IMG/VR virus record: IMGVR_UViG_3300046011_012195
Location: 1-21,716 of that record
Strand: one strand, 5' to 3'
Source of the DNA: a virus
Length of the DNA stretch: 21,716 nucleotides
The position numbers were made by a program, and so were the translations under genes. Position 1 is the first letter of the stretch. The number at the start of each line of letters is the position of its first letter. The notes below the pieces were generated by a model that was given only the letters and a program-made list of their open reading frames with translations, searched no databases and was not told the origin of the DNA. This document shows positions 2 through 21,305 of this stretch, one piece after another.

Positions 2-1066
2 GGTAATAATTTTGATGGTTCACAGTATTTTAAATATATTTATGAAAGTCAATCCTTAGAACAAGGAGCAAATATTGCCGCTTCAGGTTTTTATTCACAC
101 GCTGAAGGACAAACTACTCAAGCAATAGGAAATTTCTCACACGCTGAAGGAGAAGGTACTCAAGCAATAGGATACGCTTCACATGCTGAAGGATTTGACA
201 CAATATCATCAGGCTCACATTCGCATGCTGAAGGAAATAGTTCTGAAGCAATAGGAGAATATTCACACGCTGAAGGATTTACTACTCAAGCATCAGGATA
301 TGCTTCACATGCCGAAGGTAATCAAACAGTAGCAATAGGGCAATTTTCACATGCTGAAGGTTTTCAAACTCAAGTAATAGGAAATGGTTCACATGCTGAA
401 GGAAGAGAAACAATAGCTGTTAGTTTATATTCACACGCTGAAGGCTACCTTACATCAGCCTCAGCACTTTATTCACACGCTGAAGGATTTCAAACTAAAG
501 CAATAGGAGAAGCTTCACATACTGAAGGATCTAGTTCATTAGCATCAGGTATTGCTTCACATGCTGAAGGAGATAGAACATGGGCATTAGGAAATTACTC
601 ACATGCTGAAGGAAGTGTCACAACTGCATCAGGAGACTATTCACATGCTGAAGGAATTCTTACCTACGCATCCGGAGCATATTCACATGCTGAAGGCTAT
701 GGCACAATAGCCTCAGGTTCATTTTCTCATGCTGAAGGACTTTCAACTATAGCTTTAGGAAATTGGTCACATGCTGGAGGATGGTATACTATAGCATCAG
801 CTAATGTTCAAACAGTATTTGGTTCATATAACCTTAATAACAATACCAATTCTAAGTTCGTTATTGGTATTGGAGATGATGAAAATACTCGCAAAGACGG
901 ATTCACAGTAGATGCTGATACTTCTTTACGAGGTTCTGTTATGATCCCAACTAATACTACAAATCCAGATAGTCCAAAAACTGGATCTATGTATTTTAAT
1001 CCTACTACAAATGTGTTATCTATTTATAATGGTATAGCTTGGAAAACGTTTTCTCCAACTAACTAA
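2..1066 (+). CDS. SHAEG-repeat (YadA-head-like) fibre protein, 5'-truncated
   Basis: An open frame runs from the window edge to a TAA at 1064-1066, so the start codon lies outside the window. About 17 copies of a 14-residue unit ending in SHAEG (variants SHTEG and SHAGG) occupy bases 95-781. This is the pattern of the YadA/Hep_Hag trimeric adhesin head, a left-handed beta-roll. The last unit is the degenerate SHAGG. It is followed by a 94-residue tail domain with the landmarks KFVIGIGDD, DGFTVDAD, MIPTNT, KTGSMYFNP and IYNG. The same tail domain ends the 16100-17545 protein, so the two are paralogues. Residues before the array (LEQG, then ASGFYSHAEG) match the pre-array segment of the other two SHAEG proteins. 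A virion fibre or host-binding role is inferred from the domain type and the neighbouring tail genes. A strong terminator follows directly. Confidence 0.85.
   Translation, partial: GNNFDGSQYFKYIYESQSLEQGANIAASGFYSHAEGQTTQAIGNFSHAEGEGTQAIGYASHAEGFDTISSGSHSHAEGNSSEAIGEYSHAEGFTTQASGYASHAEGNQTVAIGQFSHAEGFQTQVIGNGSHAEGRETIAVSLYSHAEGYLTSASALYSHAEGFQTKAIGEASHTEGSSSLASGIASHAEGDRTWALGNYSHAEGSVTTASGDYSHAEGILTYASGAYSHAEGYGTIASGSFSHAEGLSTIALGNWSHAGGWYTIASANVQTVFGSYNLNNNTNSKFVIGIGDDENTRKDGFTVDADTSLRGSVMIPTNTTNPDSPKTGSMYFNPTTNVLSIYNGIAWKTFSPTN
95..781 (+). repeat. 42-bp in-frame SHAEG repeat array 1 (about 17 units)
   Basis: Tandem 42-nt units each carry a near-constant core TCACAYGCTGAAGG, which encodes SHAEG. 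Between cores are 9-residue spacers such as QTTQAIGNF or FDTISSGSH, with a few spacers longer. Synonymous T/C changes in the core show the units have diverged but remain in frame. Confidence 0.9.
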
Positions 1067-2135: not shown

Positions 2136-3695
2136 ATGTCAGGACCATTAGATTTTACAAACGAAAATATTGAAAACACGTATCAGCGAGTCTTACAAAC
2201 CGATGGTACAGATATATATGATGGAACAGGTTCACTGTTTACAGTTACAGCAGTAGCTGCTCCTGCTGGTCCCGATCAATCAGTTCAATTTAGAGATGGT
2301 ACTGCTACTAGTGGTAGCGGTACTTTTACATTTGATAAAGGTACTAGTACTATCAATATTAGTGGATCATTGGTTTCCACAGGAAGTATTTTATTTCCAT
2401 CAATTACAACAGCAAATCAATTAAATGTTCTAACAATTGACACAGCTAGTGGTCAATTATACTATACTGCATCCTCTGCATTTGGTGGAGGAACTACAAT
2501 AGACACTAGTTCATTTGTAACTACATCCTCATTTAATACATTTACCAGCTCATATAATTCAGGTAGTTTTACGGGTTCATTTACTGGTAGTTTTTATGGT
2601 ACTGCTTCTTGGGCTTACTCATCATCACAAGCAATTTCATCTTCATACGCTACAAGTGCAAGTTATGCTTTTAGTTCATCTTATGCTTTAAGTGCTTCTT
2701 ATTCATTAAGTAGTTCTCATGCTGAATCAAGTTCATATGCCCTATCATCATCTTACAGTTTATCAAGTAGTTATGCACTAAGTTCATCTCATGCAGATAG
2801 CTCTTCATATAGTCTAAGTAGTTCATATGCACTATCATCAAGTTATGCTTTAAGTAGTTCATATTCAACTACAGCTTCATATGCTTTAAATGGTGGAGTA
2901 ACTCAAATAAAAGCAGGTAGTGGGATTGATGTTGATCAAGAAACAGGAGTTGTAACAATTACGAATACTGGTGGTGGTGGAACATACAATACAGCTACTG
3001 GTTCATATGGTAGTTTTTATCATACAGGTTCCCAAACCGCAGTATCAGCTACTACTATATACTCAATGTCTTTGAGTACAACAGATATCTCAAATGGTGT
3101 TTATGTTAGTGGTTCAAGCAGAACACGAGTATATGTTACTAATGCTGGAGTATACGATTTTCAATTTTCAGCTCAGTTTAGAAATACTGATACCAGCGAT
3201 GAACAGCATGTGGCTGTTTGGATAAGAAAAAATAATATTTCTTCTGCTAATGATATAGTTGATTCTAACAGTTTTATATCTGTTCCAAAAGCTAAAGGAG
3301 GAAATCCTGGAGAAACTATAGCAGCTTGGAATTTTTTTCTACAATTAGCAGCTGAAGATTTTATTGAATTACTATGGCATGCTGAAACGGGTGGTGTAAT
3401 TACATTAGAAACAATAGCAGCAGGTACAAATCCAGTACATCCAAGAACCCCATCGTTAATTCTAACAGCAAATAGAATAGATACATTCCTTTCAAACACT
3501 GGATCATTTAGCGGCTCATTTACAGGAAATTTAATTGGTACTGCTTCTTGGGCAAATAATACTTTAACAGCATCTTTTGTAACAGCATCAAATGTTTATG
3601 GACCATATGGTTCAAGTAGTATATTAAGTGCAAGTTATGCTTTAAGTTCATCTTATGCTTTAACTGCATCTTACATTGATGGAGGTTTTTATTAA
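2136..3695 (+). CDS. Tail fibre with Ser/Tyr repeats and a jelly-roll-like domain (519 aa)
   Basis: Probable trimeric fibre or receptor-binding protein of the virion. Residues 1-85 (starting MSGPLDFTNENI) are a non-repetitive N-terminus that may be an attachment domain. Residues 155-250 are a low-complexity tract built from SSSYALSSSYA-type units, opened by GTASWAYSSSQAISSSYA. A nearly identical opening occurs in the 1279-residue fibre. Residues about 283-448 form a globular domain with beta-strand periodicity (AGVYDFQFSAQFRN, HVAVWIRKN, FIELLWHAE, SLILTANRID). This pattern resembles the C1q/TNF-like jelly rolls found at phage fibre tips. A short tail repeats GSFSGSFTGN and further SSSYAL units. 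No Shine-Dalgarno is visible. It heads the 2136-9678 fibre cluster. Confidence 0.8.
   Translation: MSGPLDFTNENIENTYQRVLQTDGTDIYDGTGSLFTVTAVAAPAGPDQSVQFRDGTATSGSGTFTFDKGTSTINISGSLVSTGSILFPSITTANQLNVLTIDTASGQLYYTASSAFGGGTTIDTSSFVTTSSFNTFTSSYNSGSFTGSFTGSFYGTASWAYSSSQAISSSYATSASYAFSSSYALSASYSLSSSHAESSSYALSSSYSLSSSYALSSSHADSSSYSLSSSYALSSSYALSSSYSTTASYALNGGVTQIKAGSGIDVDQETGVVTITNTGGGGTYNTATGSYGSFYHTGSQTAVSATTIYSMSLSTTDISNGVYVSGSSRTRVYVTNAGVYDFQFSAQFRNTDTSDEQHVAVWIRKNNISSANDIVDSNSFISVPKAKGGNPGETIAAWNFFLQLAAEDFIELLWHAETGGVITLETIAAGTNPVHPRTPSLILTANRIDTFLSNTGSFSGSFTGNLIGTASWANNTLTASFVTASNVYGPYGSSSILSASYALSSSYALTASYIDGGFY
2598..2889 (+). repeat. SSSYALSS low-complexity tract in the first fibre
   Basis: An in-frame run of Ser, Tyr, Ala, Leu and His codons repeats AGTTCATATGCA-like 18-24 nt modules. 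Tyrosine or histidine recurs about every six residues with small hydrophobics between, as in a slender beta or coiled fibre shaft. The same module occurs at 13159-13320 in another fibre gene. Confidence 0.8.
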
Positions 3696-4787: not shown

Positions 4788-5621
4788 ATGTCAAATAAAA
4801 TTATACATTTACGTAGTAATACTACTGGTAGTATTCCAACTACATCTTCTTTGGGTGTAGGTGAAATTGCTATAAATGTACCTGATGGAAAAATGTATAT
4901 TCAAAAATCAGGTAGTGCAGGACAAAGTATCGAAACTGTAATAGTATCTAATTCTACCTCATCGATTGGTACACTAACACTAATATCAAGCTCATTAATA
5001 ATATCTGGTTCCCCTAGTGTTAATTCAGGATCAGTGCTTGATTTAAGTGGAACAACTGTAGATTTTGATTTTGATACATTATCATTTTCAGGAAGTTTTG
5101 AATCTATTGGAATTAGTAAATTCACAGGCTCAGTATTCATAACTGGTTCAACTCAAGGAGGAGGCTCAGGCCATATTCTAACATATAATACATCCTCAGG
5201 TGAAATATTTTTTACAGCATCTTCAGCAATTGGAGGTGGTGGAAGTCCAACAGATGTTTCTAATTTAAAAAGTGGAAGCTTTGGAGTTACCATTGATGGA
5301 AATGGTGGTGTAATAACTGTAGGTCAAAAAGGCTATATTACAGTCCCATACAACGGAACTATTACAGATTGGGAAATAATGGCTGATCAAGCAGGAGCAT
5401 GTAATATAGATGTAAGAAAATCAACATTTGCTACATTCCCAACTCAATTATCAATCACAGGCTCAGCTCCAATTACTATGTCTGCTGCCCAAAAAGCATC
5501 TTCATCTATTTTAACAGGATGGACATCTTCAATTTCAGCAGGTGATGTATATGGATTCACTTTAAATAGTGCAACTACAATAACAAGATTAAATTTAATT
5601 ATAAATACAATTAAGTCATGA
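4788..5621 (+). CDS. Tail fibre with GEIAIN-type N-terminal domain (277 aa)
   Basis: Probable receptor-binding fibre. The N-terminus (LRSNTTGSIPTT, then LGVGEIAINVPDGKMYI) matches the short anchoring segment common to many phage fibres, in which GE(I/L)AIN is followed by a DGK(M/L)YI turn. Residues 50-160 are a Ser/Gly/Thr-rich shaft (GSVFITGSTQGGGSG, then YNTSSGEIFFTASS). Residues about 165-277 are a compact beta-rich tip (ITVGQKGYITVPYNGTI, DWEIMADQAG, NIDVRKSTF, ILTGWTSSISAGDVYGF). Tip domains of this pattern recur at the ends of unrelated tail proteins. It is a plausible host-range determinant. The final TGA overlaps the start of an 80-residue partner gene. No reverse transcriptase or template repeat was seen nearby. 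Confidence 0.8.
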   Translation: MSNKIIHLRSNTTGSIPTTSSLGVGEIAINVPDGKMYIQKSGSAGQSIETVIVSNSTSSIGTLTLISSSLIISGSPSVNSGSVLDLSGTTVDFDFDTLSFSGSFESIGISKFTGSVFITGSTQGGGSGHILTYNTSSGEIFFTASSAIGGGGSPTDVSNLKSGSFGVTIDGNGGVITVGQKGYITVPYNGTITDWEIMADQAGACNIDVRKSTFATFPTQLSITGSAPITMSAAQKASSSILTGWTSSISAGDVYGFTLNSATTITRLNLIINTIKS

Positions 5622-9716: not shown

Positions 9717-10850
9717 ATGAATATTCCTATATACCCAGGTAGCTCATCATTTTTTCCAGGAGAAACTCCATTTGGATTTTATGATTTTGATCCGCAATTT
9801 CAAACGGATGCAGATAAAGTAACAACTTTTTGCGCTAGACGATTAGGATATCCAATTATGGATGTTGAATTGCAGGATTTAAATTTTTATGCGGCATTTG
9901 AAGAAGCCGTTACTACATACGGAAATGAATTATATGCTTTTCAATTAAGAGATAATTTATTAAATGTAATTGGTGCTTCTACTTCTTCAAACATGAACCA
10001 TGCTGTTGCTACGCCTTCAATGGCTGGAGTAATTAGACTATCTCAACAATATGGTTCTGAAGCAGGAGTAGGAGGAAATATTACTTGGTATAGTGGTTCA
10101 TTTAAAACTACAGCATCAGTCCAAGATTATGATTTTAATCTATGGGCTATAGAAAACAATGTAACTGGTGGAATGGAAATCAAAAGAATATTTTGGCAGC
10201 CACCTCCAGCAGTTAATCAAGTATATAATTTAAGTGTATTCTCAGGTTTAGGTGGAGTTCCAGCAGTTGGTGCTTATGGATTATTTGGATCAACAGGATT
10301 CTTAATGTATCCAACAAGTCTATTGTTGCAATCCGCTCAAGCAGTTGAAATGCAAAATGAAATTTCATTAGCAGGATATTCATTTGAATTAATAAACAAT
10401 AAGTTAAGAATATTTCCTATACCTGACCATAATGAAGACCATATTTGGTTCCAATATATTAGCATTGAGGAAAGAAACAATAGTGTTATTGGACAAACAC
10501 CAGGTCAAGTAACAAATGCATCAAATGCTAATTTCACTAATCCAATATATTCCCAAATTAATTCAATAGGAAGACAATGGATATTTGAATATACACTAGC
10601 TTTATGTAAAGAAATGTTAGGATATGTTCGTGGAAAATATACTCAGGTTCCTATTCCAAATAAAGAAATTACATTAAATCAAGCTGATTTATTAGCATCT
10701 GCTACTACAGATAAAACAGCATTACTTGATAGATTAAGAGTATATTTTGATGAAACATCCCGTCAAGCATTATTAGCAAGAAAACAAGCAGAAAGCGATT
10801 CAGCAATGAGCGAACTCTCAAAGTCACCAATGGTAATATTCATAGGATAA
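9717..10850 (+). CDS. 13: Neck protein, gp13-like (377 aa)
   Basis: In T4, gp13 and gp14 form the neck that closes the filled head and receives the tail. The N-terminal segment (FGFYDFDPQFQTDADKV, RRLGYPIMDVELQD, FYAAFEEAVTTYGNEL) and the later segment (RQWIFEYTLALCKEMLGYVR, KYTQVPIPNKEITLNQADLL) match the gp13-like neck proteins of T4-related marine phages as I know them. At 377 residues it is longer than T4 gp13 (about 309). The extra length may lie in the Gly-rich middle around residues 165-215. A C-terminal helix (residues 325-360) may be an interaction surface. The start follows an exact late-gene motif by 15 nt, with no Shine-Dalgarno. The next gene begins 1 nt after its stop, in T4 order 13-14-15. 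Confidence 0.85.
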   Translation: MNIPIYPGSSSFFPGETPFGFYDFDPQFQTDADKVTTFCARRLGYPIMDVELQDLNFYAAFEEAVTTYGNELYAFQLRDNLLNVIGASTSSNMNHAVATPSMAGVIRLSQQYGSEAGVGGNITWYSGSFKTTASVQDYDFNLWAIENNVTGGMEIKRIFWQPPPAVNQVYNLSVFSGLGGVPAVGAYGLFGSTGFLMYPTSLLLQSAQAVEMQNEISLAGYSFELINNKLRIFPIPDHNEDHIWFQYISIEERNNSVIGQTPGQVTNASNANFTNPIYSQINSIGRQWIFEYTLALCKEMLGYVRGKYTQVPIPNKEITLNQADLLASATTDKTALLDRLRVYFDETSRQALLARKQAESDSAMSELSKSPMVIFIG

Positions 10851-10851
10851 G

Positions 10852-11364
10852 ATGGCACTATTTGGATCTTCAAGAGATGTTTCATTCCTAAGAAGAATGA
10901 ATAGAGAGTTGATGGGGGATATAATAACCCAACAATGCGCCTTCTACAAATACAAGTTAAAAGAAACATCTATTAACATGTATGGTGAAGCATCTGGTGG
11001 TAAATTCTTTGATGGACCAGTTCTATTAAATGCATTAATTACTCTTGAATTTACTTCAAATCCTACAAGTGATTTAGGTGTAAATTTCGATTGGCCTATT
11101 TCATTTGCATTCTTAAGAGATGATTTAGTTGATGCAAATTTGGTTCCTGAAGTAGGAGATATTATATTATATCAAGAAAGTTACTGGGAAGTAGATAATG
11201 CAAGAGCAACACAATATTTTGTAGGTAAAGATCCTGATTATCCAAACTCTCCAAATCCACTAAACCCGGGATTAGAGAATTTTGGTTATAATGTTGGTGT
11301 ATCGTGTGATTGTCATTACGTGCCTGCCGATAGAGTTAACATACAAAGAACTAGACTTTTATAA
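10852..11364 (+). CDS. 14: Neck/head-completion protein, gp14-like (170 aa)
   Basis: It is assigned to the gp14 position by order, between gp13-like and gp15-like genes, and by a pattern seen in T4-related environmental phages: ITQQCAFYKYKLKETSINMY, GEASGGKFFDGP, FAFLRDDLVDANLVPEVGDI, YQESYWEVDNARATQYFVGK, then CHYVPADRVNIQRTR. It is clearly shorter than T4 gp14 (about 256 residues), so it may be a compact homologue or a functional analogue. It is a soluble beta-rich protein without membrane segments. Probable role: joining the portal side of the head to the tail terminator. The start is 1 nt after the gp13 stop and its own stop overlaps the next start (TAATG), which argues for coupled synthesis of neck components. 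Confidence 0.68.
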   Translation: MALFGSSRDVSFLRRMNRELMGDIITQQCAFYKYKLKETSINMYGEASGGKFFDGPVLLNALITLEFTSNPTSDLGVNFDWPISFAFLRDDLVDANLVPEVGDIILYQESYWEVDNARATQYFVGKDPDYPNSPNPLNPGLENFGYNVGVSCDCHYVPADRVNIQRTRLL

Positions 11365-12227
11365 TGGCTAAGAATAGTAGAACTCCAATCCCTAAAACAC
11401 AAAGAGAACTTAGTACCGAACAGCATAAAGCGTTCGATACTGAGATGGGAAATCCTAATAGCGCTAATGGTGTTAATAGAGGAAATCAAGTTTCTTTTAC
11501 AGGAGATTCTACAAAACCATTCTCAATTGGTATTCAAGATATTGATGAATCTATAATGTATTATTTTCAAAATGTAATTAAACCATTTGTAATACAAAAC
11601 GGAACAAGAATTGAAGTTCCAATAATTTATGGTTCACCAGAAAAATGGGCTTCATTTCAAAAATTTGGATACTTTAGAGACGCTCAAGGTAGAATTATGA
11701 TGCCAATCATCATGTTCAAAAGAGACAGTATTGATAAAGTAAGGACAATTGCTAATAAATTAGATGCAAACAATCCAAACAATGTTTCAATACAAGGAAA
11801 AAGTTATAGCCCTAAAAATGCATATGACAATTTTAATGCATTAAATAATGTTGTACCTCAAAAACAATACTACGCAGTTGTAGTTCCTGACTATATTACA
11901 GTAACTTATACATGTACCATCAATACTTATTACATGGATCAGCTCAATAAAATCATTGAAGCAATTGAATACGCTTCTGATTCATATTGGGGCGATCCCT
12001 CTCGTTTTCAGTTTAGAGCGATGATTGATTCGTTTAATATTAAAACAGAATTAGCAGATAAAGAAGAAAGAACAGTAAGTAGTACATTCAGTATTAAAAT
12101 GAATGGATATATTATCCCCGATATATTACAAAAAGATGTGACAGCATTGAAAAAATTACAAGATGTGGTTAAAATAAGGGTAAGTGAACAAGTGATAAAT
12201 AACATAAACGATATTAAAAATACTTAA
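11364..12227 (+). CDS. 15: Tail terminator/sheath stabiliser, gp15-like (287 aa)
   Basis: In T4, gp15 (about 272 residues) caps the tail tube and sheath and docks to the neck. Gene order 13-14-15, similar length and a shared pattern support the call. Landmarks are a helix-to-strand segment (SIMYYFQNVIKPF, GTRIEVPIIYGSPEKW), a central strand VVPDYITVTYTCTINTYYMD, a helix QLNKIIEAIEYASDSYW and a strand pair RFQFRAMIDSFNI, VSSTFSIKMNGYIIPD. The NGYIIPD ending resembles the NGW-x-P segment of T4 gp15. The first 55 residues are polar and probably flexible. The stop codon overlaps a late-gene motif by one base. The antisense frame near 12008-12205 is a shadow. Confidence 0.72.
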   Translation: MAKNSRTPIPKTQRELSTEQHKAFDTEMGNPNSANGVNRGNQVSFTGDSTKPFSIGIQDIDESIMYYFQNVIKPFVIQNGTRIEVPIIYGSPEKWASFQKFGYFRDAQGRIMMPIIMFKRDSIDKVRTIANKLDANNPNNVSIQGKSYSPKNAYDNFNALNNVVPQKQYYAVVVPDYITVTYTCTINTYYMDQLNKIIEAIEYASDSYWGDPSRFQFRAMIDSFNIKTELADKEERTVSSTFSIKMNGYIIPDILQKDVTALKKLQDVVKIRVSEQVINNINDIKNT

Positions 12228-12242: not shown

Positions 12243-15200
12243 ATGAGTACTATACCTTTTTTAAATGATCTAGACTCAGGCCTACAAGCCCGAGATATCA
12301 TAAATGCTATTAGAGGCCCAGTTAATTCTATATATGGGAGCGTTAGTGGTTCAGGAAATGGAGATACACAATTTACAGGTTCATTTAGTGGATCTTTAAA
12401 TGGAACAGCATCAACTGCTTCTTTTACTCCAAATGCTTTAATTACGGCATCAGTTAATTCAAATGAAATTACATTTACAAAAGGAAATGGAGACACATTC
12501 CTAATTACTGTTGATACTGGATCTGCACCACCAACTGGAAGTTTCCTTATAACAGCCTCAGTTAATTCAAATGAAATTACATTTACAAAAGGAGATGGAA
12601 CACAGTTTCCTATCTTAATTGATACAGGGTCAGGAGGATCAGGAATCCCAGGAGGAAATCCAGGTGAAATTCAATACAATAGTGCTAGTGCTTTTGAAGG
12701 AGTACCTCAATTAACATTTGATGGAACTAATCTAATGGCAACTGGATCTTTTTTAGGTAATCTAAATGGAACCGCTTCATATGTTACCTTAAATGGATTA
12801 GGAATAACAGTAAATGGAATGTCCTTAACTGCATCTGTTAGAACAGTAAATGGAAATTCCCCAGACGCAATTACGGGTAATATATCAACAGGACTATCCG
12901 CAACCGTAACTGGTACCTCAGCTTCATTAGTAATAAGTAGTTCAGGAGCAGTAACAGCTTCATTATCGGATGGTTTAGTATGGATTGTATCGGGTGATAG
13001 TACACCTGGAAATAATGGTGATACATTTATATGGAGCTCAGGATCTCAACAATGGTTTGAAATTACCCCATTAGATCAAACAGCAGCAGATGCTAGATAT
13101 CTTCAGTTGTCTGGAGGCTTAATGGTAGGTAATATAACTATGGATCCAGGTTTTACCTTAATAGGTACCTCTTCTTGGGCATATTCCTCATCACAAGCTA
13201 TAAGTGCATCTTATGTATTAAGTAGTTCATATGCATTAAGTAGTTCATACGCTACATCAGCAAGCTATGCTTTAAGTGCAAGCTATGCATTAAGTAGTTC
13301 ATTTGCTACTACTGCCTCTTATGTAAACATAAAAAAAGGCCCTAGAATTGAAGCTATAAACTACAATGGAAGTGAAATTTTTATTACTGGATCCATTGGG
13401 GGATCAGACACACACATTCAATTCAATAGTGGATCTGAATTTAGTGGATCTGAAAATTTTTCATACAAATATACAAATAATGGTTTTCAACAAGGAGAAA
13501 CAGTTTCAGCATCAGGTACATTTTCTCATGCTCAAGGAAAATTAACAACATCCTCTGGAAATTGGTCTCATGCTGAAGGAGATAGAACAATAGCATCCGG
13601 TTCATACTCACACGCTGAAGGAGATAGAACAAAAGCTGATGGTTTATATTCTCACGCTGAAGGATCTCAAACATGGGCAGTTGCTAATTATTCTCATGCT
13701 GAAGGATCTAGAGTAACAGCTTCAGGTATTGAGTCTCATGCAGAAGGAAGAAATACATTTACTTCAGGCAATTTTTCTCATGCTGAAGGATATGGAGCTA
13801 AAGCAATAGGAGATAATTCACACGCTGAAGGATATTTTACTATTACAGGTGACCCAACTCAACCTACTACATTTGGTGAATATTCACATGCTGAAGGACG
13901 ACAAACAACCGCCTCTGGAGAATCATCACATGCTGAAGGATTTCAAACTAAAGCATTAGGACAAAGATCACATGCTGAAGGTAGAAATTCAATAGCATTT
14001 GGTGAATATTCACATGCTGAAGGATGGTTTACTGTGTCATCAGGTTCTTCTACCCATGCTGAAGGATATCAAACAATAGCAAGAGGTGATTATACACATG
14101 CTGAAGGATATCAAACTCTTGCTAATGGTACTGGTTCACATGCTGAAGGATGGCTCACAACCTCTTCAGGTCTTTATTCTCATGCTGAAGGATATTTAAC
14201 ATTATCTTCTAATACCAGTTCACATGCTGAAGGAATATTCACAACTGCTTCAGGAGTTTATTCACATGCTGAAGGTAGAGAAACATTAGCAACAGGTTCA
14301 AACTCACATGCTGAAGGATATCTTACTATAGCATCAGGTTCCGAATCTCACGCTGAAGGTAGAGATACAAGAGCTACTAATACTGCGGCTCATGCTGAAG
14401 GATCTGGTTCATTAGCATCAGGTCCTGCCTCACATGCTGAAGGATATTTTACAACAGCTTCAAATCAATATTCACATGCTGAAGGATATCAAACTCTAGC
14501 TTCTGGACTCGCTTCACATGCTGAAGGTAGAGAAACAAGAGCTACTAATACTGCAGCTCATGCTGAAGGATATCGAACAACTGCTTCAGGTGTTTATTCC
14601 CATGCTGAAGGAAGATCAACACAAGCATCAGCTTCATATTCGCATGCTGAAGGCTACCAAACAAATACATCAGGAGCATATTCACACGCTGAAGGATATT
14701 TAACAACATCCTCAGGTGAGTATTCACATACTGAAGGTTATCAAACTCAAACAATAATAGGACAATATGGTCACGCTGAAGGATGGAGTACACTATCATC
14801 TGCAGATGCTTCTCATGCTGAAGGATTGCAAACAACAGCCTCTGGAAATTATTCACACGCAGAGGGAGTTGAAACAATAGCCTCTAACACTGGCTCACAT
14901 GCTGAAGGTGCAGGTACTTTAGCCTCAGGACGATATGCTCATACCGAAGGATATCTTACCACAGCTTCAGGCCAATTTACACACGCTGAAGGTAGATCTA
15001 CTCAAGCGATAGGAGAAGCTTCACATACTGAAGGATTAAATACTCAAGCATCAGGATCCTATTCACATGCTGAAGGATATCAAACAACAGCATCGGGGAA
15101 TTACTCTCATGCTGAAGGAGTTGAAACAGTAGCTACTAATAGTGGTTCACACGCTGAAGGAGTAGGTACTTTAGCCTCAGGACGATATGCTCATACCGAA

Positions 15201-16082
15201 GGATATCTTACCACAGCTTCAGGACAATATTCACATGCTGAAGGAGAAGCTACTCAAGCAATAGGAGAACGATCACATGCTGAAGGATATTTAACAACAG
15301 CTTCAGGTACTACTTCACATGCTGAAGGATGGAATACGGTAGCTTCTGGATCCTATCAACATGTACAAGGCCAATATAATATATCTAGCTCAGCCCAGTC
15401 TGCTTTTATACTTGGAAATGGAACTTCTCCATCAAATAGAAGTAACCTAATATTTGCATCAGGATCACAAGTACAAATAACAGGATCATTACAGGTAACT
15501 GGATCAGCTATTATATCAGGATCATTTAACGTACATAATACTTTTAATGGAGGATTTTATCCAACTTTTGAAAACCGAACTAATGGTTCTAATGCAGAAA
15601 CCGGTTTTGTGGTAGCTGGAGGTTCAGGTGTGTCTGGTTCTCTTGTATATATAGCAGCTGCTCCTAAAGGCTATACTGCAAATCCAACATATGCTGGAAG
15701 TAGCATATTCATAACGGCTCCTACTGATATTACAGGTGATGTAAATAGACCAGTAAAACAAATATTTGCTATATTAGGTACACCAGCGACTAATAATGCA
15801 TTTGAATGGTATTATAGTGGTTCTTATGTCTTAGGAGGACCCAATGCATTAAAAATGAAATTAAATGTTCCATCTGGTATTTTATCAAACTCAGGTAGTA
15901 TTGTAACATCAGGTAGTTTAACTATAGCATCAGGATCCGCAAATACGAATGGAGATGGTGCTTTATACTTTGGAGCTAGTGGTTCAAATGGCAGTTGGAG
16001 AATAGCACCTTCAGGTGCAAATTTAGTAATCCAAAAATGGAATGGGTCAATATATACTGGAGGAACAACAATAACACCATAA
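12243..16082 (+). CDS. Giant SHAEG-repeat fibre/adhesin (1279 aa)
   Basis: Probable trimeric virion fibre. Residues 1-60 are a non-repetitive N-terminus (MSTIPFLNDLDSGLQARDII) followed by GSFSGSLNGTAS shaft units. Residues about 66-125 hold a duplicated segment NSNEITFTKG. Residues 282-300 carry ADARYLQLSGG, like the ADARY segments of many tail fibres. Residues 306-360 form an SSSYALSS tract. Residues 427-1043 contain about 44 units of 14 residues centred on SHAEG, the YadA-head-like beta-roll. After the array, FILGNGTSPSNRSNLIFASG resembles the end of YadA-type heads. A non-repetitive C-terminal region follows (GFVVAGGSGVSG, FEWYYSGSYVLGG, GSWRIAPSGANLVIQKW) and may be the tip. It sits between gp15 and gp18, where T4 carries genes 16 and 17. 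In-frame repeats make length changes likely. Confidence 0.88.
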   Translation: MSTIPFLNDLDSGLQARDIINAIRGPVNSIYGSVSGSGNGDTQFTGSFSGSLNGTASTASFTPNALITASVNSNEITFTKGNGDTFLITVDTGSAPPTGSFLITASVNSNEITFTKGDGTQFPILIDTGSGGSGIPGGNPGEIQYNSASAFEGVPQLTFDGTNLMATGSFLGNLNGTASYVTLNGLGITVNGMSLTASVRTVNGNSPDAITGNISTGLSATVTGTSASLVISSSGAVTASLSDGLVWIVSGDSTPGNNGDTFIWSSGSQQWFEITPLDQTAADARYLQLSGGLMVGNITMDPGFTLIGTSSWAYSSSQAISASYVLSSSYALSSSYATSASYALSASYALSSSFATTASYVNIKKGPRIEAINYNGSEIFITGSIGGSDTHIQFNSGSEFSGSENFSYKYTNNGFQQGETVSASGTFSHAQGKLTTSSGNWSHAEGDRTIASGSYSHAEGDRTKADGLYSHAEGSQTWAVANYSHAEGSRVTASGIESHAEGRNTFTSGNFSHAEGYGAKAIGDNSHAEGYFTITGDPTQPTTFGEYSHAEGRQTTASGESSHAEGFQTKALGQRSHAEGRNSIAFGEYSHAEGWFTVSSGSSTHAEGYQTIARGDYTHAEGYQTLANGTGSHAEGWLTTSSGLYSHAEGYLTLSSNTSSHAEGIFTTASGVYSHAEGRETLATGSNSHAEGYLTIASGSESHAEGRDTRATNTAAHAEGSGSLASGPASHAEGYFTTASNQYSHAEGYQTLASGLASHAEGRETRATNTAAHAEGYRTTASGVYSHAEGRSTQASASYSHAEGYQTNTSGAYSHAEGYLTTSSGEYSHTEGYQTQTIIGQYGHAEGWSTLSSADASHAEGLQTTASGNYSHAEGVETIASNTGSHAEGAGTLASGRYAHTEGYLTTASGQFTHAEGRSTQAIGEASHTEGLNTQASGSYSHAEGYQTTASGNYSHAEGVETVATNSGSHAEGVGTLASGRYAHTEGYLTTASGQYSHAEGEATQAIGERSHAEGYLTTASGTTSHAEGWNTVASGSYQHVQGQYNISSSAQSAFILGNGTSPSNRSNLIFASGSQVQITGSLQVTGSAIISGSFNVHNTFNGGFYPTFENRTNGSNAETGFVVAGGSGVSGSLVYIAAAPKGYTANPTYAGSSIFITAPTDITGDVNRPVKQIFAILGTPATNNAFEWYYSGSYVLGGPNALKMKLNVPSGILSNSGSIVTSGSLTIASGSANTNGDGALYFGASGSNGSWRIAPSGANLVIQKWNGSIYTGGTTITP
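12450..12593 (+). repeat. 108-bp-offset duplication near the giant fibre N-terminus
   Basis: A 36-bp stretch is identical at 12450-12485 and 12558-12593, encoding SVNSNEITFTKG in both. Flanking codons also encode similar residues (LITA before, GDTF/GTQF after). This indicates an in-frame 36-codon duplication of a shaft module. Confidence 0.8.
13159..13320 (+). repeat. SSSYALSS low-complexity tract in the giant fibre
   Basis: The in-frame tract encodes GTSSWAYSSSQAISASY and then YALSSSYALSS-type units. It matches, at both protein and partly DNA level, the tract at 2598-2889 in the 519-residue fibre. This suggests exchange or duplication of shaft modules between fibre genes. Confidence 0.78.
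14353..14571 (+). repeat. 168-bp-offset (four-unit) duplication in array 2
   Basis: The 51-nt segments at 14353-14403 and 14521-14571 differ at only two positions and encode the unusual spacer ATNTAAHAEG. The offset of 168 nt equals four 42-nt units, as expected from unequal exchange in register. Confidence 0.8.
14912..15223 (+). repeat. 252-bp-offset (six-unit) duplication in array 2
   Basis: A 60-bp stretch is identical at 14912-14971 and 15164-15223, including rare synonymous choices such as CATACCGAAGG for HTEG. The offset of 252 nt is exactly six 42-nt units. Flanking units also correspond (VETIASNTGSHAEG with VETVATNSGSHAEG). This is a recent-looking block duplication. Confidence 0.88.
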
Positions 16083-16099: not shown

Positions 16100-17545
16100 A
16101 TGGGATTAGTAACAGAAAATATAATAATTAGTGGAAGTGGAACATCTTCTTTATCATTAAGTAATTTACCATCAGCTCCTTTATTAACTAATATAGTAGT
16201 TTATGATTCTGCTTCAGGTTTAATTTCATACACCTCTTCAGCAGCTGTTGGAGGTGGTGGAGGCGGAACACCAGGAGGTTCGAATACACAAGTTCAGTAT
16301 AATGCAGGTGGTACATTTGCAGGTACTGCAAGTTTTGCTTTTATTTACCAAAGTCGATCATTACAACAAGGAGAACTAGTAACTGCATCTGGTTTATTTT
16401 CACACGCTGAAGGATCTAATACTCAAGCAATAGGACAGGCTTCACATGCTGAAGGTAATACTACCCAAGCAATAGGAGAAACTTCACATGCTGAAGGATC
16501 TGGTACTTATGCAATAGGACAATACTCTCATGCTGAAGGATCTGGAACTCAAACAGGAACACAAAACGCATATTATGCTGAACCAATAACATCAGGTATT
16601 ATTACATTATCTTCATCATACAGTGATGTTTCTTCAGAATTTGCTTCAGACGGCTTATTGTATTTATATGATAGACTTTTTGATAACAATTACAATAGAG
16701 CTACTTTCACCATTAGTCAATCATACTTTGATTCTACAAACACAATAGTAGAACTATATGATACTAGTGTAACAACTACAACAGCATATGTTGGAGATTT
16801 AACATATGGAATATCAAATTGGACAGGAAATCAAATAATTCCAGGAGAATATTCTCACACTGAAGGATCTAGTACTATAGCATTAGGAGAATATTCACAT
16901 GCTGAAGGCGCTAGTACTCAAGCATCAGGAGATTACTCACACGCTGAAGGAGAAACTACTCAAGCAATAGGAGGTGCATCACATGCTGAAGGATATCTAA
17001 CAATATCCTCAGGCCAATACTCACACGCTGAAGGATATAAGTCAATAGCATCAGGTTCAAATTCTCATGCTGAAGGAGGAATAGCAAGTACTAGTCGTGC
17101 AGGTGGATTTGCTTTAGGAGAAGGTTCACACGCTGAAGGACAACAAACTCAAGCAATAGGAAATGTTTCACATGCTGAAGGAAATAATACTAAAGCAATG
17201 GGAGAAGCTTCACATGCTGAAGGATCACTTACTGAAGCAATAGGATCATATTCACATGCTGGAGGATTTAGATCAATAGCATCTGGTTCTTATCAAACAG
17301 TAGTGGGTACTTATAATGCTCAAAACAACACAGGATCTAAATTTGTAGTTGGTATTGGGGATGCAACAATACGCAAAGATGGATTTACAGTAGATGCTGA
17401 TGCTAACTTATCAGGTTCTATTATGATTCCAACTAACACAGGAAATCCAACAACACCTAAAACAGGTTCAATGTATTTTAATCCTTCAACAAATCTTTTA
17501 TATATTTATAATGGAACAGCCTGGAGATCAGGTTCATTTGCTTAA
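16100..17545 (+). CDS. SHAEG-repeat fibre with inserted domain (481 aa)
   Basis: Probable trimeric virion fibre, paralogous to the truncated gene at the window start. Residues 1-85 are a short N-terminus and Gly-rich shaft (ISGSGTSSLSLSNLPSAP, GGGGGGTPGGSNTQVQYN). Residues about 100-147 hold four SHAEG units. Residues about 148-251 are a non-SHAEG island (SGIITLSSSYSDVSSEF, LLYLYDRLFDNNYN, STNTIVELYDTSV) where a normal spacer has 9 residues. Ten more units follow, ending in SHAGG at about 385-389. The C-terminal 92 residues (KFVVGIGDA, DGFTVDADANLSGS, KTGSMYFNPSTNLLYIYNG) match the end of the 2-1066 protein. It lies 17 nt after the giant fibre and 12 nt before a small coiled-coil gene, so the three probably share one transcript. 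The ATG at 16100 follows an A-rich leader without Shine-Dalgarno. Confidence 0.85.
   Translation: MGLVTENIIISGSGTSSLSLSNLPSAPLLTNIVVYDSASGLISYTSSAAVGGGGGGTPGGSNTQVQYNAGGTFAGTASFAFIYQSRSLQQGELVTASGLFSHAEGSNTQAIGQASHAEGNTTQAIGETSHAEGSGTYAIGQYSHAEGSGTQTGTQNAYYAEPITSGIITLSSSYSDVSSEFASDGLLYLYDRLFDNNYNRATFTISQSYFDSTNTIVELYDTSVTTTTAYVGDLTYGISNWTGNQIIPGEYSHTEGSSTIALGEYSHAEGASTQASGDYSHAEGETTQAIGGASHAEGYLTISSGQYSHAEGYKSIASGSNSHAEGGIASTSRAGGFALGEGSHAEGQQTQAIGNVSHAEGNNTKAMGEASHAEGSLTEAIGSYSHAGGFRSIASGSYQTVVGTYNAQNNTGSKFVVGIGDATIRKDGFTVDADANLSGSIMIPTNTGNPTTPKTGSMYFNPSTNLLYIYNGTAWRSGSFA
16397..17266 (+). repeat. 42-bp in-frame SHAEG repeat array 3 (about 14 units, interrupted)
   Basis: Four units, then a roughly 104-residue interruption between about 16542 and 16852, then ten units. 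One later spacer is enlarged (GIASTSRAGGFALGEG). The final unit is SHAGG, as in array 1. Confidence 0.88.
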
Positions 17546-17557
17546 TAAATCAAATTT

Positions 17558-17806
17558 ATGACAACAAAAGTTTTAACACCAGAAGAAATCCAATCATTAA
17601 AATTAATTCAAGACAAACGCATCCAACTAGTTGAACAGTTTGGAGTTTTAGAAATGAGACTTCAAGATCTTGAATTACAAAAAGAACAACTCAAGACCGA
17701 ACTAAAACAACTACGTCAAGAGGAAATTAAGGTAGGTGAAACCCTACAACAAAAATATGGTGACGGATCTATTAACCTTGAAAAGGGGGAATTTATAAGT
17801 AGCTAA
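17558..17806 (+). CDS. Small coiled-coil protein (82 aa)
   Basis: Function not recognised by name. Residues 7-65 are a strong coiled coil rich in Leu, Gln, Glu and Lys with heptad-like spacing (IQSLKLIQDKRIQLVEQF, LEMRLQDLELQKEQLKTELK, LRQEEIKVGETLQQKYG). A short tail follows (GSINLEKGEFIS). No membrane or signal segment is present. Coiled-coil proteins of this size and ending are common small genes near tail genes in T4-related environmental phages. It lies 12 nt behind the SHAEG fibre and before the sheath gene. Roles as fibre-trimerisation or assembly helper, or as a minor tail component, are all possible. The stop overlaps a one-mismatch version of the late-gene motif (ATATTTTTAA at 17806-17815). 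Confidence 0.78.
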   Translation: MTTKVLTPEEIQSLKLIQDKRIQLVEQFGVLEMRLQDLELQKEQLKTELKQLRQEEIKVGETLQQKYGDGSINLEKGEFISS

Positions 17807-17859: not shown

Positions 17860-19938
17860 ATGGCAGAAGTACTAATATCACCCGGTGTCTTAGCAAGAGA
17901 AAATGATTCTTCTTTTGTATCTAAAAGACCAGTTACTGTAGGAGCAGCGATCATTGGGCCAACCGTTAAAGGTCCAGTAGAAATTCCAACAGTAGTAACT
18001 ACATGGAATCAATTCCAAAACATTTTCGGTACTACTTTAACAAGTGGGAGTGTTAATGATAGTAAAAATTATACTTATTTTACCTCTATTACAGCATATA
18101 ATTATTTTGCTAATGGAGGTCAATCATTATTGGTAGCTAGAGTAGTATCAGGATCAGGAACTTCATATTCCCCAGCAACATCTTCTGGAGCACCCAATAA
18201 TATAACTCTCACAACTGCCTCTGCAAATGCTGATTTTGCTTATTTATATAATGAATCATCAACAGCCGGTTCTTCATCTTTAAGTGTAAGAGGTATTACT
18301 ATTCAAGTAACAGGAAGTACAGTTCCTGCAAATACTAGTAATATAATTTATGTAGCATCAGGTTCAACTGCAGCAAGTACAGCTACTGCAGTAGTAACAG
18401 CTTTTAATGCTAGTGCGTCTTTATATTCTGCTTTACAGTATATGACATCTAGTGTTCCATCAGCTGCAAATATTAAATTTGATTCTACTTTAGGATATCT
18501 AGGAAATTCATATACGTTCATTTCAGGAAGTACTACAGTAACACTTTCAGGAGGAACATCTGCTTCTCCATTTACTTTAGAAACATTTTCTGAAGGTATT
18601 ATCATGAATAGTACTAGTACTGAAACAGCAGGTGGAAATTTACCTAGTGGCTCAGCAGATAATGTTAGATGGCAGATTGTAAATGCTAGATCAGCTTCTG
18701 GAACATTTGATTTATTAATCAGAAGAGGTAATGATAATGCATTGCAACCAACAGTATTAGAAACTTGGACAAACTTAACATTAGATCCAAATTCACCAAA
18801 CTATATTGCTCGTGTAATTGGTGATTTTAAAGAAGTATTAGATACAACTTCTACACCAGCACAAATTTCATTTGAAGGTTCATTTGCTAATAGATCAAAT
18901 TATGTAAGAGTAAGTGCTGTAAATTACACAACACCTAACTTCTTCGATAATGCAGGAATTTTCAAACCACAATATACATCATCCATCCCGTTAAATACTT
19001 CAGGATCATTTGGTGGAGCAATTGGTAATATACCGGGTGGAGTTAATTTCTACAACAACATTAATAACACAAATACTCAAGGATTAAAAGGATCTGATTA
19101 TGATAATATGATTGATTTGTTTTCAAATTCTGATGATTACAAATTTAATATATTATTTACCCCAGGATTATATAATACAGACTATGCCGGCCCTATTGGT
19201 GATTTGATTCAAACTGCTCAAAACCGTGGTGATTTCATTTATGTGATTGATCCAGTAGCTTATGGTTCTACAGTTTCATTAGCATCATCTGCCGCAGGTA
19301 CTAGAGATACTTCATATGGAGCTATGTATTGGCCATGGGTACAAGTAGTTGAACCTTCAACAGGCGAATACGTTTGGGTACCAGCATCTACAGCAATCGC
19401 AGGTGTTTATGCTTACAACGATTCAGTAGCAGAACCTTGGTTCGCACCCGCAGGTATTAACAGAGGTGGATTGAGTACAGTAGTAAGAGCAGAGAAAAAA
19501 TTATCACAAGGTAATCGTAATGATTTGTATTCTGCTAAAGTAAATCCAATCGCAACATTTCCAGGACAAGGAGTAGTAGTATACGGTCAGAAAACACTTC
19601 AACTAAGAGCATCTGCTCTTGATCGTGTAAATGTTCGTCGTTTATTAATTGCTCTTAAATCGTACATTTCTCAAATTGCAAATACGTTAGTGTTTGAGCA
19701 AAATTCAATTACAACGAGAAATTCATTCTTAGGCCAAGTTAATCCTTACTTAACAAGCGTTCAACAACGCCAAGGATTATACGCGTTTAAAGTGATTATG
19801 GACGATTCAAACAATACTCCTGACGTAATCGACAGAAACGAGTTAGTTGGTCAAATATACTTACAACCAACTAAAACCGCTGAATTTATTTACTTAGATT
19901 TCAACGTTACTCCAACTGGCGCTTCATTCCCATCATAA
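17860..19938 (+). CDS. 18: Tail sheath protein, gp18-like (692 aa)
   Basis: It forms the contractile outer sheath around the tail tube. The N-terminal segment (EVLISPGVLARENDSSF, TVGAAIIGPTVKGPVEIP, WNQFQNIFGT, AYNYFANGGQSLLVARVV) and the C-terminal segment (RVNVRRLLIALKSYISQIAN, FEQNSITTRNSFLGQVNPYL, QQRQGLYAFKVIMDDSNNTP, VIDRNELVGQIYLQPTKTAE) match the conserved ends of T4-type sheath proteins. The final strand FIYLDFNVTPTGASF corresponds to the conserved C-terminal strand. Length 692 compares with 659 in T4. The variable middle (residues about 95-260) is Ser/Thr-rich and is expected to be surface-exposed and fast-evolving. The start follows motif copy 4 by 23 nt. The tube gene follows after 46 nt with its own motif. 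Confidence 0.96.
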   Translation: MAEVLISPGVLARENDSSFVSKRPVTVGAAIIGPTVKGPVEIPTVVTTWNQFQNIFGTTLTSGSVNDSKNYTYFTSITAYNYFANGGQSLLVARVVSGSGTSYSPATSSGAPNNITLTTASANADFAYLYNESSTAGSSSLSVRGITIQVTGSTVPANTSNIIYVASGSTAASTATAVVTAFNASASLYSALQYMTSSVPSAANIKFDSTLGYLGNSYTFISGSTTVTLSGGTSASPFTLETFSEGIIMNSTSTETAGGNLPSGSADNVRWQIVNARSASGTFDLLIRRGNDNALQPTVLETWTNLTLDPNSPNYIARVIGDFKEVLDTTSTPAQISFEGSFANRSNYVRVSAVNYTTPNFFDNAGIFKPQYTSSIPLNTSGSFGGAIGNIPGGVNFYNNINNTNTQGLKGSDYDNMIDLFSNSDDYKFNILFTPGLYNTDYAGPIGDLIQTAQNRGDFIYVIDPVAYGSTVSLASSAAGTRDTSYGAMYWPWVQVVEPSTGEYVWVPASTAIAGVYAYNDSVAEPWFAPAGINRGGLSTVVRAEKKLSQGNRNDLYSAKVNPIATFPGQGVVVYGQKTLQLRASALDRVNVRRLLIALKSYISQIANTLVFEQNSITTRNSFLGQVNPYLTSVQQRQGLYAFKVIMDDSNNTPDVIDRNELVGQIYLQPTKTAEFIYLDFNVTPTGASFPS

Positions 19939-19984: not shown

Positions 19985-20473
19985 ATGGCAATTATATCAC
20001 CAAACGAAATATTTTTCACAGCATTTGAACCTAAGGTAAAGAATCGCTTTATCATGTATGTTGATGGAATTCCTTCATATACAATTAAAAAGATTGGTGC
20101 TGTAGGAGTAACAATGGATGAAATCAAATTAAACCATATTAATGTTTACCGCAAAATCAAAGGTAAAGCAGTATGGGATGATATCGAAATGACATTGTTT
20201 GATCCTATCACTCCTTCAGGCGCTCAGGCAGTAATGGAATGGGTACGTTTACATCATGAATCTGTTACTGGCCGCGATGGTTACTCAGATTTTTACAAGA
20301 AAGACGTAACTGTTAATGTTTTAGGACCTGTAGGCGATATCGTTTCAGAATGGATTATCAAAGGAGCATTTATTAAATCTGCTAAGTTTGGTGATTACAG
20401 TTGGGATGATGAAGCAGCAGCTCAAGAATTGACTGTTAACTTAGGAATGGATTATTGCATCCTCAATTTTTGA
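19985..20473 (+). CDS. 19: Tail tube protein, gp19-like (162 aa)
   Basis: It forms the inner tube through which DNA is delivered. Its length (162) is almost that of T4 gp19 (163). Landmarks of the family are ISPNEIFFTAFEPKVKNRFI, then MYVDGIPSYTIKKIG, NVYRKIKGKAVWDDIEMTLF, DPITPSGAQAVMEWVRLHHE, DFYKKDVTVNVLGPVGDIV, EWIIKGAFIKSAKFGDYSWD and the closing ELTVNLGMDYCILNF. It directly follows the sheath gene, the usual 18-19 pairing. The start is preceded by an A-rich leader downstream of motif copy 5. A strong terminator 33 nt after its stop ends the structural transcript, so tube mRNA can be made in excess. Confidence 0.96.
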   Translation: MAIISPNEIFFTAFEPKVKNRFIMYVDGIPSYTIKKIGAVGVTMDEIKLNHINVYRKIKGKAVWDDIEMTLFDPITPSGAQAVMEWVRLHHESVTGRDGYSDFYKKDVTVNVLGPVGDIVSEWIIKGAFIKSAKFGDYSWDDEAAAQELTVNLGMDYCILNF

Positions 20474-20546: not shown

Positions 20547-21305
20547 ATGACTAATGCGGAAAAATTAATTCAAGAAAAATACAATAATATTCATCCAATT
20601 TGTGGGTGTGGTTGTGGAGAAAAAACAGTTTATGATCATAATTCAAAAGATTTTGGAAAATTTAAACGTGGACATCAAACACGAGTAAACCCAAACTATT
20701 TTGGAGATCCTAAAAATCCAAAACGAGTAGAAAAAATTATATCAACCCGTAAACAAAAGTTTGTTTCGGGTGAATATGATCATGTTAAAGAAGCTATAAA
20801 GAAAAATAGAAAAGATCCTAAATTAGGAGAAAAAATATCTAAAGGTGCGAAGGGAATACCTAAACCTAAACCAGAAGGATTTGGAGTAGGTAGAAAACAC
20901 TCAAAAAAGACCAAAGAAAAAATGAGTGAATCAGCTATAGATAGAATATTGAAAACAGATCAAAACCACACTTCTAAACTAGAAAAAAAATTTTCAATTA
21001 TATTAGATAATCTAAAAATAAAATACATTCAGTGGTTTTATGCTAAAGAAATAAAAGCATTTTATGATTTTTACATCCCCGCAAAAAATATTATTATAGA
21101 GGTAGATGGAGATTTTTGGCATTGTAACCCAAATAGTAAATATATCCTACCAGAATATAAAACTCAAGAAAAAAATCTTAAACGTGACCAACAGAAAAAT
21201 CAATGGGCTAAAAACAATGGTTTTAAATTGCTTAGATTTTGGGAAACAGATATAAATAATAGCCCTCAATCAATTATAGAAATACTTAAACAAGAACTTA
21301 TCTAA
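20547..21305 (+). CDS. Free-standing homing endonuclease, Vsr-like/EDxHD type with NUMOD3 motif (252 aa)
   Basis: Probable site-specific DNA endonuclease that spreads its own gene. The N-terminus has a zinc-binding-like cluster (C19, C21, C23, with H43 in FKRGHQTR). Residues 115-130 match a NUMOD3-type DNA-binding motif (GRKHSKKTKEKMSESA). The catalytic region spans about 143-240: SKLEKKF (E146), FYDFYIP (D174), then IIIEVDGDFWHCNP (E185, D187, H192) and LLRFWETDI. This is the arrangement of the Vsr-like EDxHD homing endonucleases related to I-Bth0305I. It lies alone between tail tube and gp26-like genes, directly after a terminator, with no intron or intein visible in its neighbours. The lysine-rich composition differs from the flanking structural genes. 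It is flanked downstream by motif copy 6. Confidence 0.86.
   Translation: MTNAEKLIQEKYNNIHPICGCGCGEKTVYDHNSKDFGKFKRGHQTRVNPNYFGDPKNPKRVEKIISTRKQKFVSGEYDHVKEAIKKNRKDPKLGEKISKGAKGIPKPKPEGFGVGRKHSKKTKEKMSESAIDRILKTDQNHTSKLEKKFSIILDNLKIKYIQWFYAKEIKAFYDFYIPAKNIIIEVDGDFWHCNPNSKYILPEYKTQEKNLKRDQQKNQWAKNNGFKLLRFWETDINNSPQSIIEILKQELI

Follow-up and report, generated by a model that had tools for sequence, protein, structure and literature searches.

The locus described here raises the question of what a long array of 14-residue SHAEG units, related to the YadA heads of bacterial trimeric autotransporter adhesins, is doing in a phage gene: whether it serves as a structural rod within a fibre, as a binding surface in its own right, or as a borrowed bacterial adhesin. 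The DNA analysed, referred to below as the window, comprises positions 1 to 21,716 of the IMG/VR virus record IMGVR_UViG_3300046011_012195 (21,716 nt). Related loci are designated by L numbers.

Genomic context of the array

Gene order and protein families mark the window phage as a contractile-tailed phage. A head-tail adaptor (9717-10850, phrog_211) is followed by the gene at the gp15 position (11364..12227, + strand), the 1279-residue fibre gene B that bears the array (ORF 12243..16082, +), a second fibre gene, C (16100..17545, +; 481 residues), an 82-residue coiled-coil-like ORF (17558..17806, +), the tail sheath (gp18; 17860..19938, +; phrog_23, E 8e-74; PF04984 and PF17482) and the tail tube (gp19-like; 19985..20473, +; phrog_4542, E 5e-21). 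A homing-endonuclease/Vsr-like gene (20547-21305) separates the tube gene from a baseplate-hub-like gene, only the start of which falls in the window; no match to this endonuclease gene was found in the initial array loci, including the close sister L044. A further fibre gene, A (2..1066, +), has its 5' end outside the window. An earlier note on this DNA had placed the array gene between gp15 and gp18. The gp18 neighbour is confirmed by the sheath families, whereas gp15 holds as a position only: the family profile search gave no significant match for ORF 11364-12227 (best E 0.05), and its naming as gp15 by family was dropped.

By sheath, the nearest cultured relatives are Flavobacterium phages classed as Immutovirus (51% across 82% of the sheath protein), from which we infer that a Bacteroidota host is likely. 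The 82-residue ORF, which has no PHROG match, immediately precedes the sheath in most of the relatives with both genes. Repeats of 18 bp at 2654-2889, 3624-3673 and 13212-13295 code for SSYALS-like hexapeptide runs, which are present in several fibre genes of the window phage and its relatives.

The SHAEG arrays and the parts of fibre B

Counting with the motif [STAGQ]H[AVT][EQG]G yields exactly 44 units in fibre B, in agreement with the estimate of about 44 in the earlier note. The array is encoded at 13524..15371 (+), from the start of the first motif to the end of the last; 41 of its 43 spacings are 14 residues, the other two being 22 and 15, and His and Gly are found in 44/44 units and Glu in 42/44. 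Shuffled versions of the same protein (2000 shuffles) contain a mean of 0.2 motifs and a maximum of 2. The two further arrays that had been put at about 17 and 14 units have precisely these numbers, with 17 units in ORF 2-1066 (at 95-781) and 14 in ORF 16100-17545, where a spacing of 109 residues occurs inside the array. The relation to YadA heads, for which a profile search had been suggested, was recovered above the cut-off (25 bits) of the YadA_head family PF05658 in two of the three array proteins, at 42.6 bits in the 44-unit and 47.4 bits in the 17-unit protein, the 14-unit protein falling just under it at 21.7 bits. Fibre B also matches PHROG 25468 (E 3e-167) in 11 stretches across the array.

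Two other expectations of the note did not hold, namely that bacterial heads have far fewer units and that 44 is a remarkable number. The C-terminal head of BpaC has 42 repeats (PMC9543794), 37 units follow one another in a locus of a Bacteroidia genome (L169), and the phage relatives reach 62 (L014), 51 (L010 and near-identical copies), 49 (L015), 48 (L036) and 46 (L016), so that a record array length is ruled out.

Upstream of the array, the N-terminal 425 residues of fibre B (12243..13517, +) are 70-89% identical, over the aligned part, to those of L044, L072, L073 and L058, and the first ~95 residues are common to cassette fibres with differing tips. Downstream, the C-terminal 236 residues (15372..16079, +) consist of a cap, which makes up the first ~42 residues and is widespread, and a tip domain common to L044 and L058-L061. 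Sequence searches against solved structures returned nothing meaningful for the N-terminal and tip regions, and no PDB match for the tip. Within the array, a six-unit block of 252 bp is tandemly duplicated (14809..15330, +; TRF period 252, 83% match), and the 93-95% DNA identity of units 33/39 and 34/40 gives this duplication a recent-looking character.

Predicted fold and length of the rod

The last 13 units and the tip (window 14847-16079) were modelled with AlphaFold2 as a single chain. The pLDDT was 91-96 over most of the modelled units and below about 60 in the tip; the model of the fibre B N-terminus was poor (mostly < 45). For the two-part model, Foldseek by itself returned no PDB entry with E < 0.001, with BoaA and BpaC low in the list, and these two ranked first after VIA re-alignment of the Foldseek candidates. 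The array model aligned with BpaC (7o23) at Z 17.9 over 199 residues with 30% identity and with BoaA (3s6l) at Z 14.8, the next match having a Z of 8.9. The rmsd was high (6-7.5 Å), which may arise from twist along a long rod. The left-handed parallel beta-roll proposed in the earlier note is thus the predicted fold, in agreement with the BpaC and BoaA heads, and the other kind of fold that would have spoken against the note was not obtained. With a rise per layer of 4.8 Å (PMC9543794), the 44 units correspond to a calculated length of ~21 nm, in line with the long rigid rod that had been envisaged.

A predicted His-Glu core

With the Gly taken as residue 8, positions 5 and 7 make up the core of beta-roll heads; these are Val and Ile in YadA, and Thr and Thr/Asn/Ser/Gly in BpaC, which has been called the sole head with hydrophilic residues at position 7 (PMC9543794). 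In SHAEG units, position 5 is His and position 7 is Glu. The fibre B array, with His in every unit and Glu in all but two, therefore falls outside the canonical YadA heads (NSVAIG subclass), in which both positions are hydrophobic and of the Val/Ile type; its alignment to BpaC pairs H with T, and E with N or S. Among interior units, to which the count was confined since end units may be mis-registered, His 5 and Glu 7 are both kept in 1114 of 1122 overall and in 251 of 252 from loci chosen solely by the gp15-position gene. As the 44 array loci picked by SHAEG peptides are biased to that type, frequencies were drawn from the gp15-selected set, in which 32 of 33 arrays are of the His/Glu type. 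Positions 2, 9, 10, 12 and 14 vary freely, and most surface positions show a variation of ~3 bits or more; the constancy of His and Glu therefore reflects more than recent copying. The solved structures retrieved by the SHAEG profile or by the array itself lack this pattern, the relevant matches being BpaC, CbpF, 9gh4, UspA1, the trimeric autotransporter adhesin 3wp8 and BoaA.

Judged from the alignment with these heads, His 5 and Glu 7 would face the axis of the SHAEG rod, and because they stand in place of the axis-facing Val and Ile of the YadA-type roll, a charge-balanced ladder of His and Glu is predicted for the core of this variant roll. We tentatively suggest, at slightly less than even odds, that SHAEG arrays form a class of beta-roll rod of their own, in which almost every trimer layer would place 3 His and 3 Glu at the axis. 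The resulting core, with 132 His and 126 Glu along 21 nm, would be charge-balanced and possibly ion- or pH-responsive, and phages would alter the length of the rod by layers. Charged residues are normally excluded from a beta-roll core, and their presence in nearly every layer would widen the rules by which fibrous proteins are built and makes pH or metal dependence a testable question.

Same ends, different arrays

Close relatives differ strongly in the array itself. In L044, whose gp15-position protein and sheath are 92% and 89% identical to those of the window, the orthologue of fibre B (74% identity in the N-terminal and 61% in the C-terminal part) has 8 SHAEG and about 6 degenerate units; it also has ~130 extra residues after the array, so that array length is not the sole difference, and the fibre C position is occupied by a 275-residue gene without SHAEG units. 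In L058 (gp15-position protein 94%, sheath 86%), the 355-residue orthologue keeps both ends of fibre B, and the array is absent. L073 combines the fibre B N-terminus with a different tip, which is 48% identical over 121 residues to that of window ORF 4788-5621.

The predicted proteins of close relatives thus show a strong difference in unit number, and with 0, about 14 or 44 units in orthologues whose ends are the same, the array behaves as an optional length module between fixed ends. Together with the 252-bp duplication, these orthologues suggest that arrays grow and shrink, duplication and recombination between DNA repeats being the most likely route. This graded series (0, about 14 and 44 units) also provides a natural experiment on the effect of fibre length on a phage.

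The fibre-gene cassette and its contents

A scan with the gp15-position gene returned 322 related loci, of which 80 were kept; 54 non-redundant contigs have the gp15-position gene, the 82-residue ORF and the sheath in that order. The 82-residue ORF, which in the window forms the right border of the interval as the gp15-position gene forms the left, was an inclusion criterion for this set, and its presence in 54/54 is no finding. Between the two borders, the interval is empty in 25/54 contigs (gap 24-145 bp), holds SHAEG fibres of 5-58 units in 17/54, and holds other genes, mostly fibre-like, in 12/54. In L094 and L103, the gp15-position DNA is 100% identical, and yet the interval measures 2041 bp in the former versus 72 bp in the latter. 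The cultured Microcystis phage Mel-JY01 has the site without a fibre gene, with just a 104-residue ORF. When the contigs are labelled as SHAEG or not on the gp15-position tree, the label changes 10 times, versus a mean of 14.5 after shuffling, which indicates that cassette content is partly inherited and not random.

As judged from gene content, the empty and filled intervals among relatives show the interval to be a cassette for optional fibre genes, with whole fibres gained, lost or swapped at one site, and they mark where this phage group trades optional host-contact genes. Fibre B has the features of a phage fibre, in that its gene lies among tail genes, its N-terminus is conserved and its tips are exchangeable.

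The open-access papers searched yielded no description of the cassette location, the change in unit number or the His/Glu core; the position of the SHAEG fibre gene between the gp15-position gene and the 82-residue ORF, the changing unit number between the same ends with the array as a length module, and the His/Glu core at positions 5 and 7 are regarded as new. Among the open papers listed for the SHAEG motif none was relevant, and earlier descriptions may exist outside that literature. SHAEG-type arrays are already catalogued in phages (PHROG 25468), and YadA homologues in phages have been noted earlier (PMC3728262).

Model for fibre B and alternative explanations

In the reading that we favour, with a probability of roughly 0.7, fibre B is a trimeric accessory fibre that its contractile-tailed phage can exchange, and a beta-roll rod with a His-Glu core would serve in it as a length-adjustable spacer for the tip. 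The N-terminus would anchor the fibre to the particle, a role that, given the poor pLDDT of this region, rests on conservation and gene position. The 44-unit array would form the ~21 nm rod and, as part of a trimer, set the stand-off distance of the C-terminal tip; the cap would close the roll and carry the tip, which probably binds a receptor or surface. Unit number would shift by duplication and recombination, and whole fibres come and go through the cassette.

It is possible that metal ions or protons bind in the His-Glu core, which would then act beyond packing as a chemical switch for stiffening, assembly or pH sensing, although we consider this unlikely. The near-invariance of both residues across highly diverged units would suit such a function, and other phage fibres bind metal at the threefold axis via His motifs. 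Yet a 1:1 His-Glu layer could neutralise itself, and the L044 array holds units that are not of the His/Glu type in the same run. About as doubtful is the proposal that the array itself is the binding surface, with exposed aromatics (Tyr 3, Tyr/Trp 9) binding host glycans and more units giving more avidity. Tyr is found at position 3 in about 40% and at position 9 in about 20% of units, both positions being variable, and YadA-type heads such as CbpF and YadA bind host ligands (PMC12012533, PMC8844515). L058, however, retains the conserved N- and C-termini and the tip though the array is absent.

A third alternative, which takes up the mimicry idea of the earlier note, is that the phage imitates the heads of bacterial trimeric autotransporter adhesins or has captured them directly. 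The predicted fold is the same, with the aforementioned identity to BpaC, NCBIfam adhesin models match the repeats weakly, and in one locus (L026) SHAEG units pass into YadA-like units in one register. Nevertheless, YadA_head was the one Pfam family recovered in the 1279 residues of fibre B, with neither a YadA membrane anchor nor a further adhesin domain among the matches. Bacterial heads also have different core residues: of the units in Bacteroidia arrays recovered by the SHAEG profile, just 7% combine His 5 with Glu 7, and position 7 is predominantly hydrophobic. The mimicry claim is therefore not upheld for these adhesins, and we regard it as very improbable. Fibre B as a trimeric autotransporter is ruled out by the missing C-terminal YadA anchor; by inspection, its N-terminus starts MSTIPFLNDLDSGLQARDIINAI, with no basic/hydrophobic leader.

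Relation to bacterial proteins and to other viruses

Phage and bacterial units were compared at positions 5 and 7, which are diagnostic, and not in a tree, for which 14-residue units were judged uninformative. The SHAEG profile matched 19 of 295 Bacteroidia genomes at E 1e-6, with few arrays of the His/Glu type. Exceptions among the bacterial loci are the secreted-looking proteins of L055/L056 and L163, which have His/Glu SHAEG arrays. Like fibre A, these Bacteroidota proteins possess a SHAEG array and the same cap (39% identity to fibre A over 269 residues); unlike the phage fibres, they have a signal-peptide-like start, a calcium-loop-like N-terminal motif and a coiled-coil-like end, and the L055/L056 gene has chromosomal neighbours, lying between what we take, from inspection of the sequence starts, to be leucyl-tRNA synthetase and aldehyde dehydrogenase genes. 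The shared array and cap point to limited, occasional exchange between phages and secreted Bacteroidota proteins, in one direction or the other. The gene flow suggested by the earlier note is thus not supported for autotransporter adhesins and is supported in a narrower form for these proteins in bacterial assemblies. The L055 contig (7713-8870) is labelled as a Euryarchaeota MAG but carries almost the same neighbouring genes as L056, a Crocinitomicaceae MAG, and its label is probably due to mis-binning.

Among described proteins, the BpaC head of Burkholderia pseudomallei shares with fibre B a 14-residue left-handed parallel beta-roll, a comparable number of repeats (42), a hydrophilic core and repeat expansion; it differs in its core residues (Thr 5, Thr/Asn/Ser/Gly 7) and in being part of an autotransporter. 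SHAEG arrays are likewise present in PHROG 25468, a phage family without assigned function, and in 'LbR_YadA-like' proteins of uncultured Caudovirales, the top BFVD structural match having 34% identity. The tail spike of Flavobacterium phage immuto (QQO91849.1), the nearest cultured relative by sheath, likewise combines a SHAEG array with the cap seen in fibre B (76% identity over 42 residues), but it carries 11-12 SHAEG units, and its gene lies ~33 kb from the gp15-position gene, outside the cassette.

Among viral proteins, the best structural matches of the array model (14847-16079) include proteins of Pithovirus and Mimivirus besides those of phages, and SHAEG units are also found in a Verrucomicrobia phage, a crAss-like phage and a Lachnospiraceae phage. 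In L026 (4326-6377), the passage from SHAEG to YadA-like units (SSAFG, SFSLG) takes place within a single continuous array, which, as read from its units, is a natural bridge between the two types. Finally, the array of the crAss-like phage cr131_1 (L186, 1418-3193) has in-frame stops at an amino-acid site (SHA*G), consistent with a stop codon being read as an amino acid.
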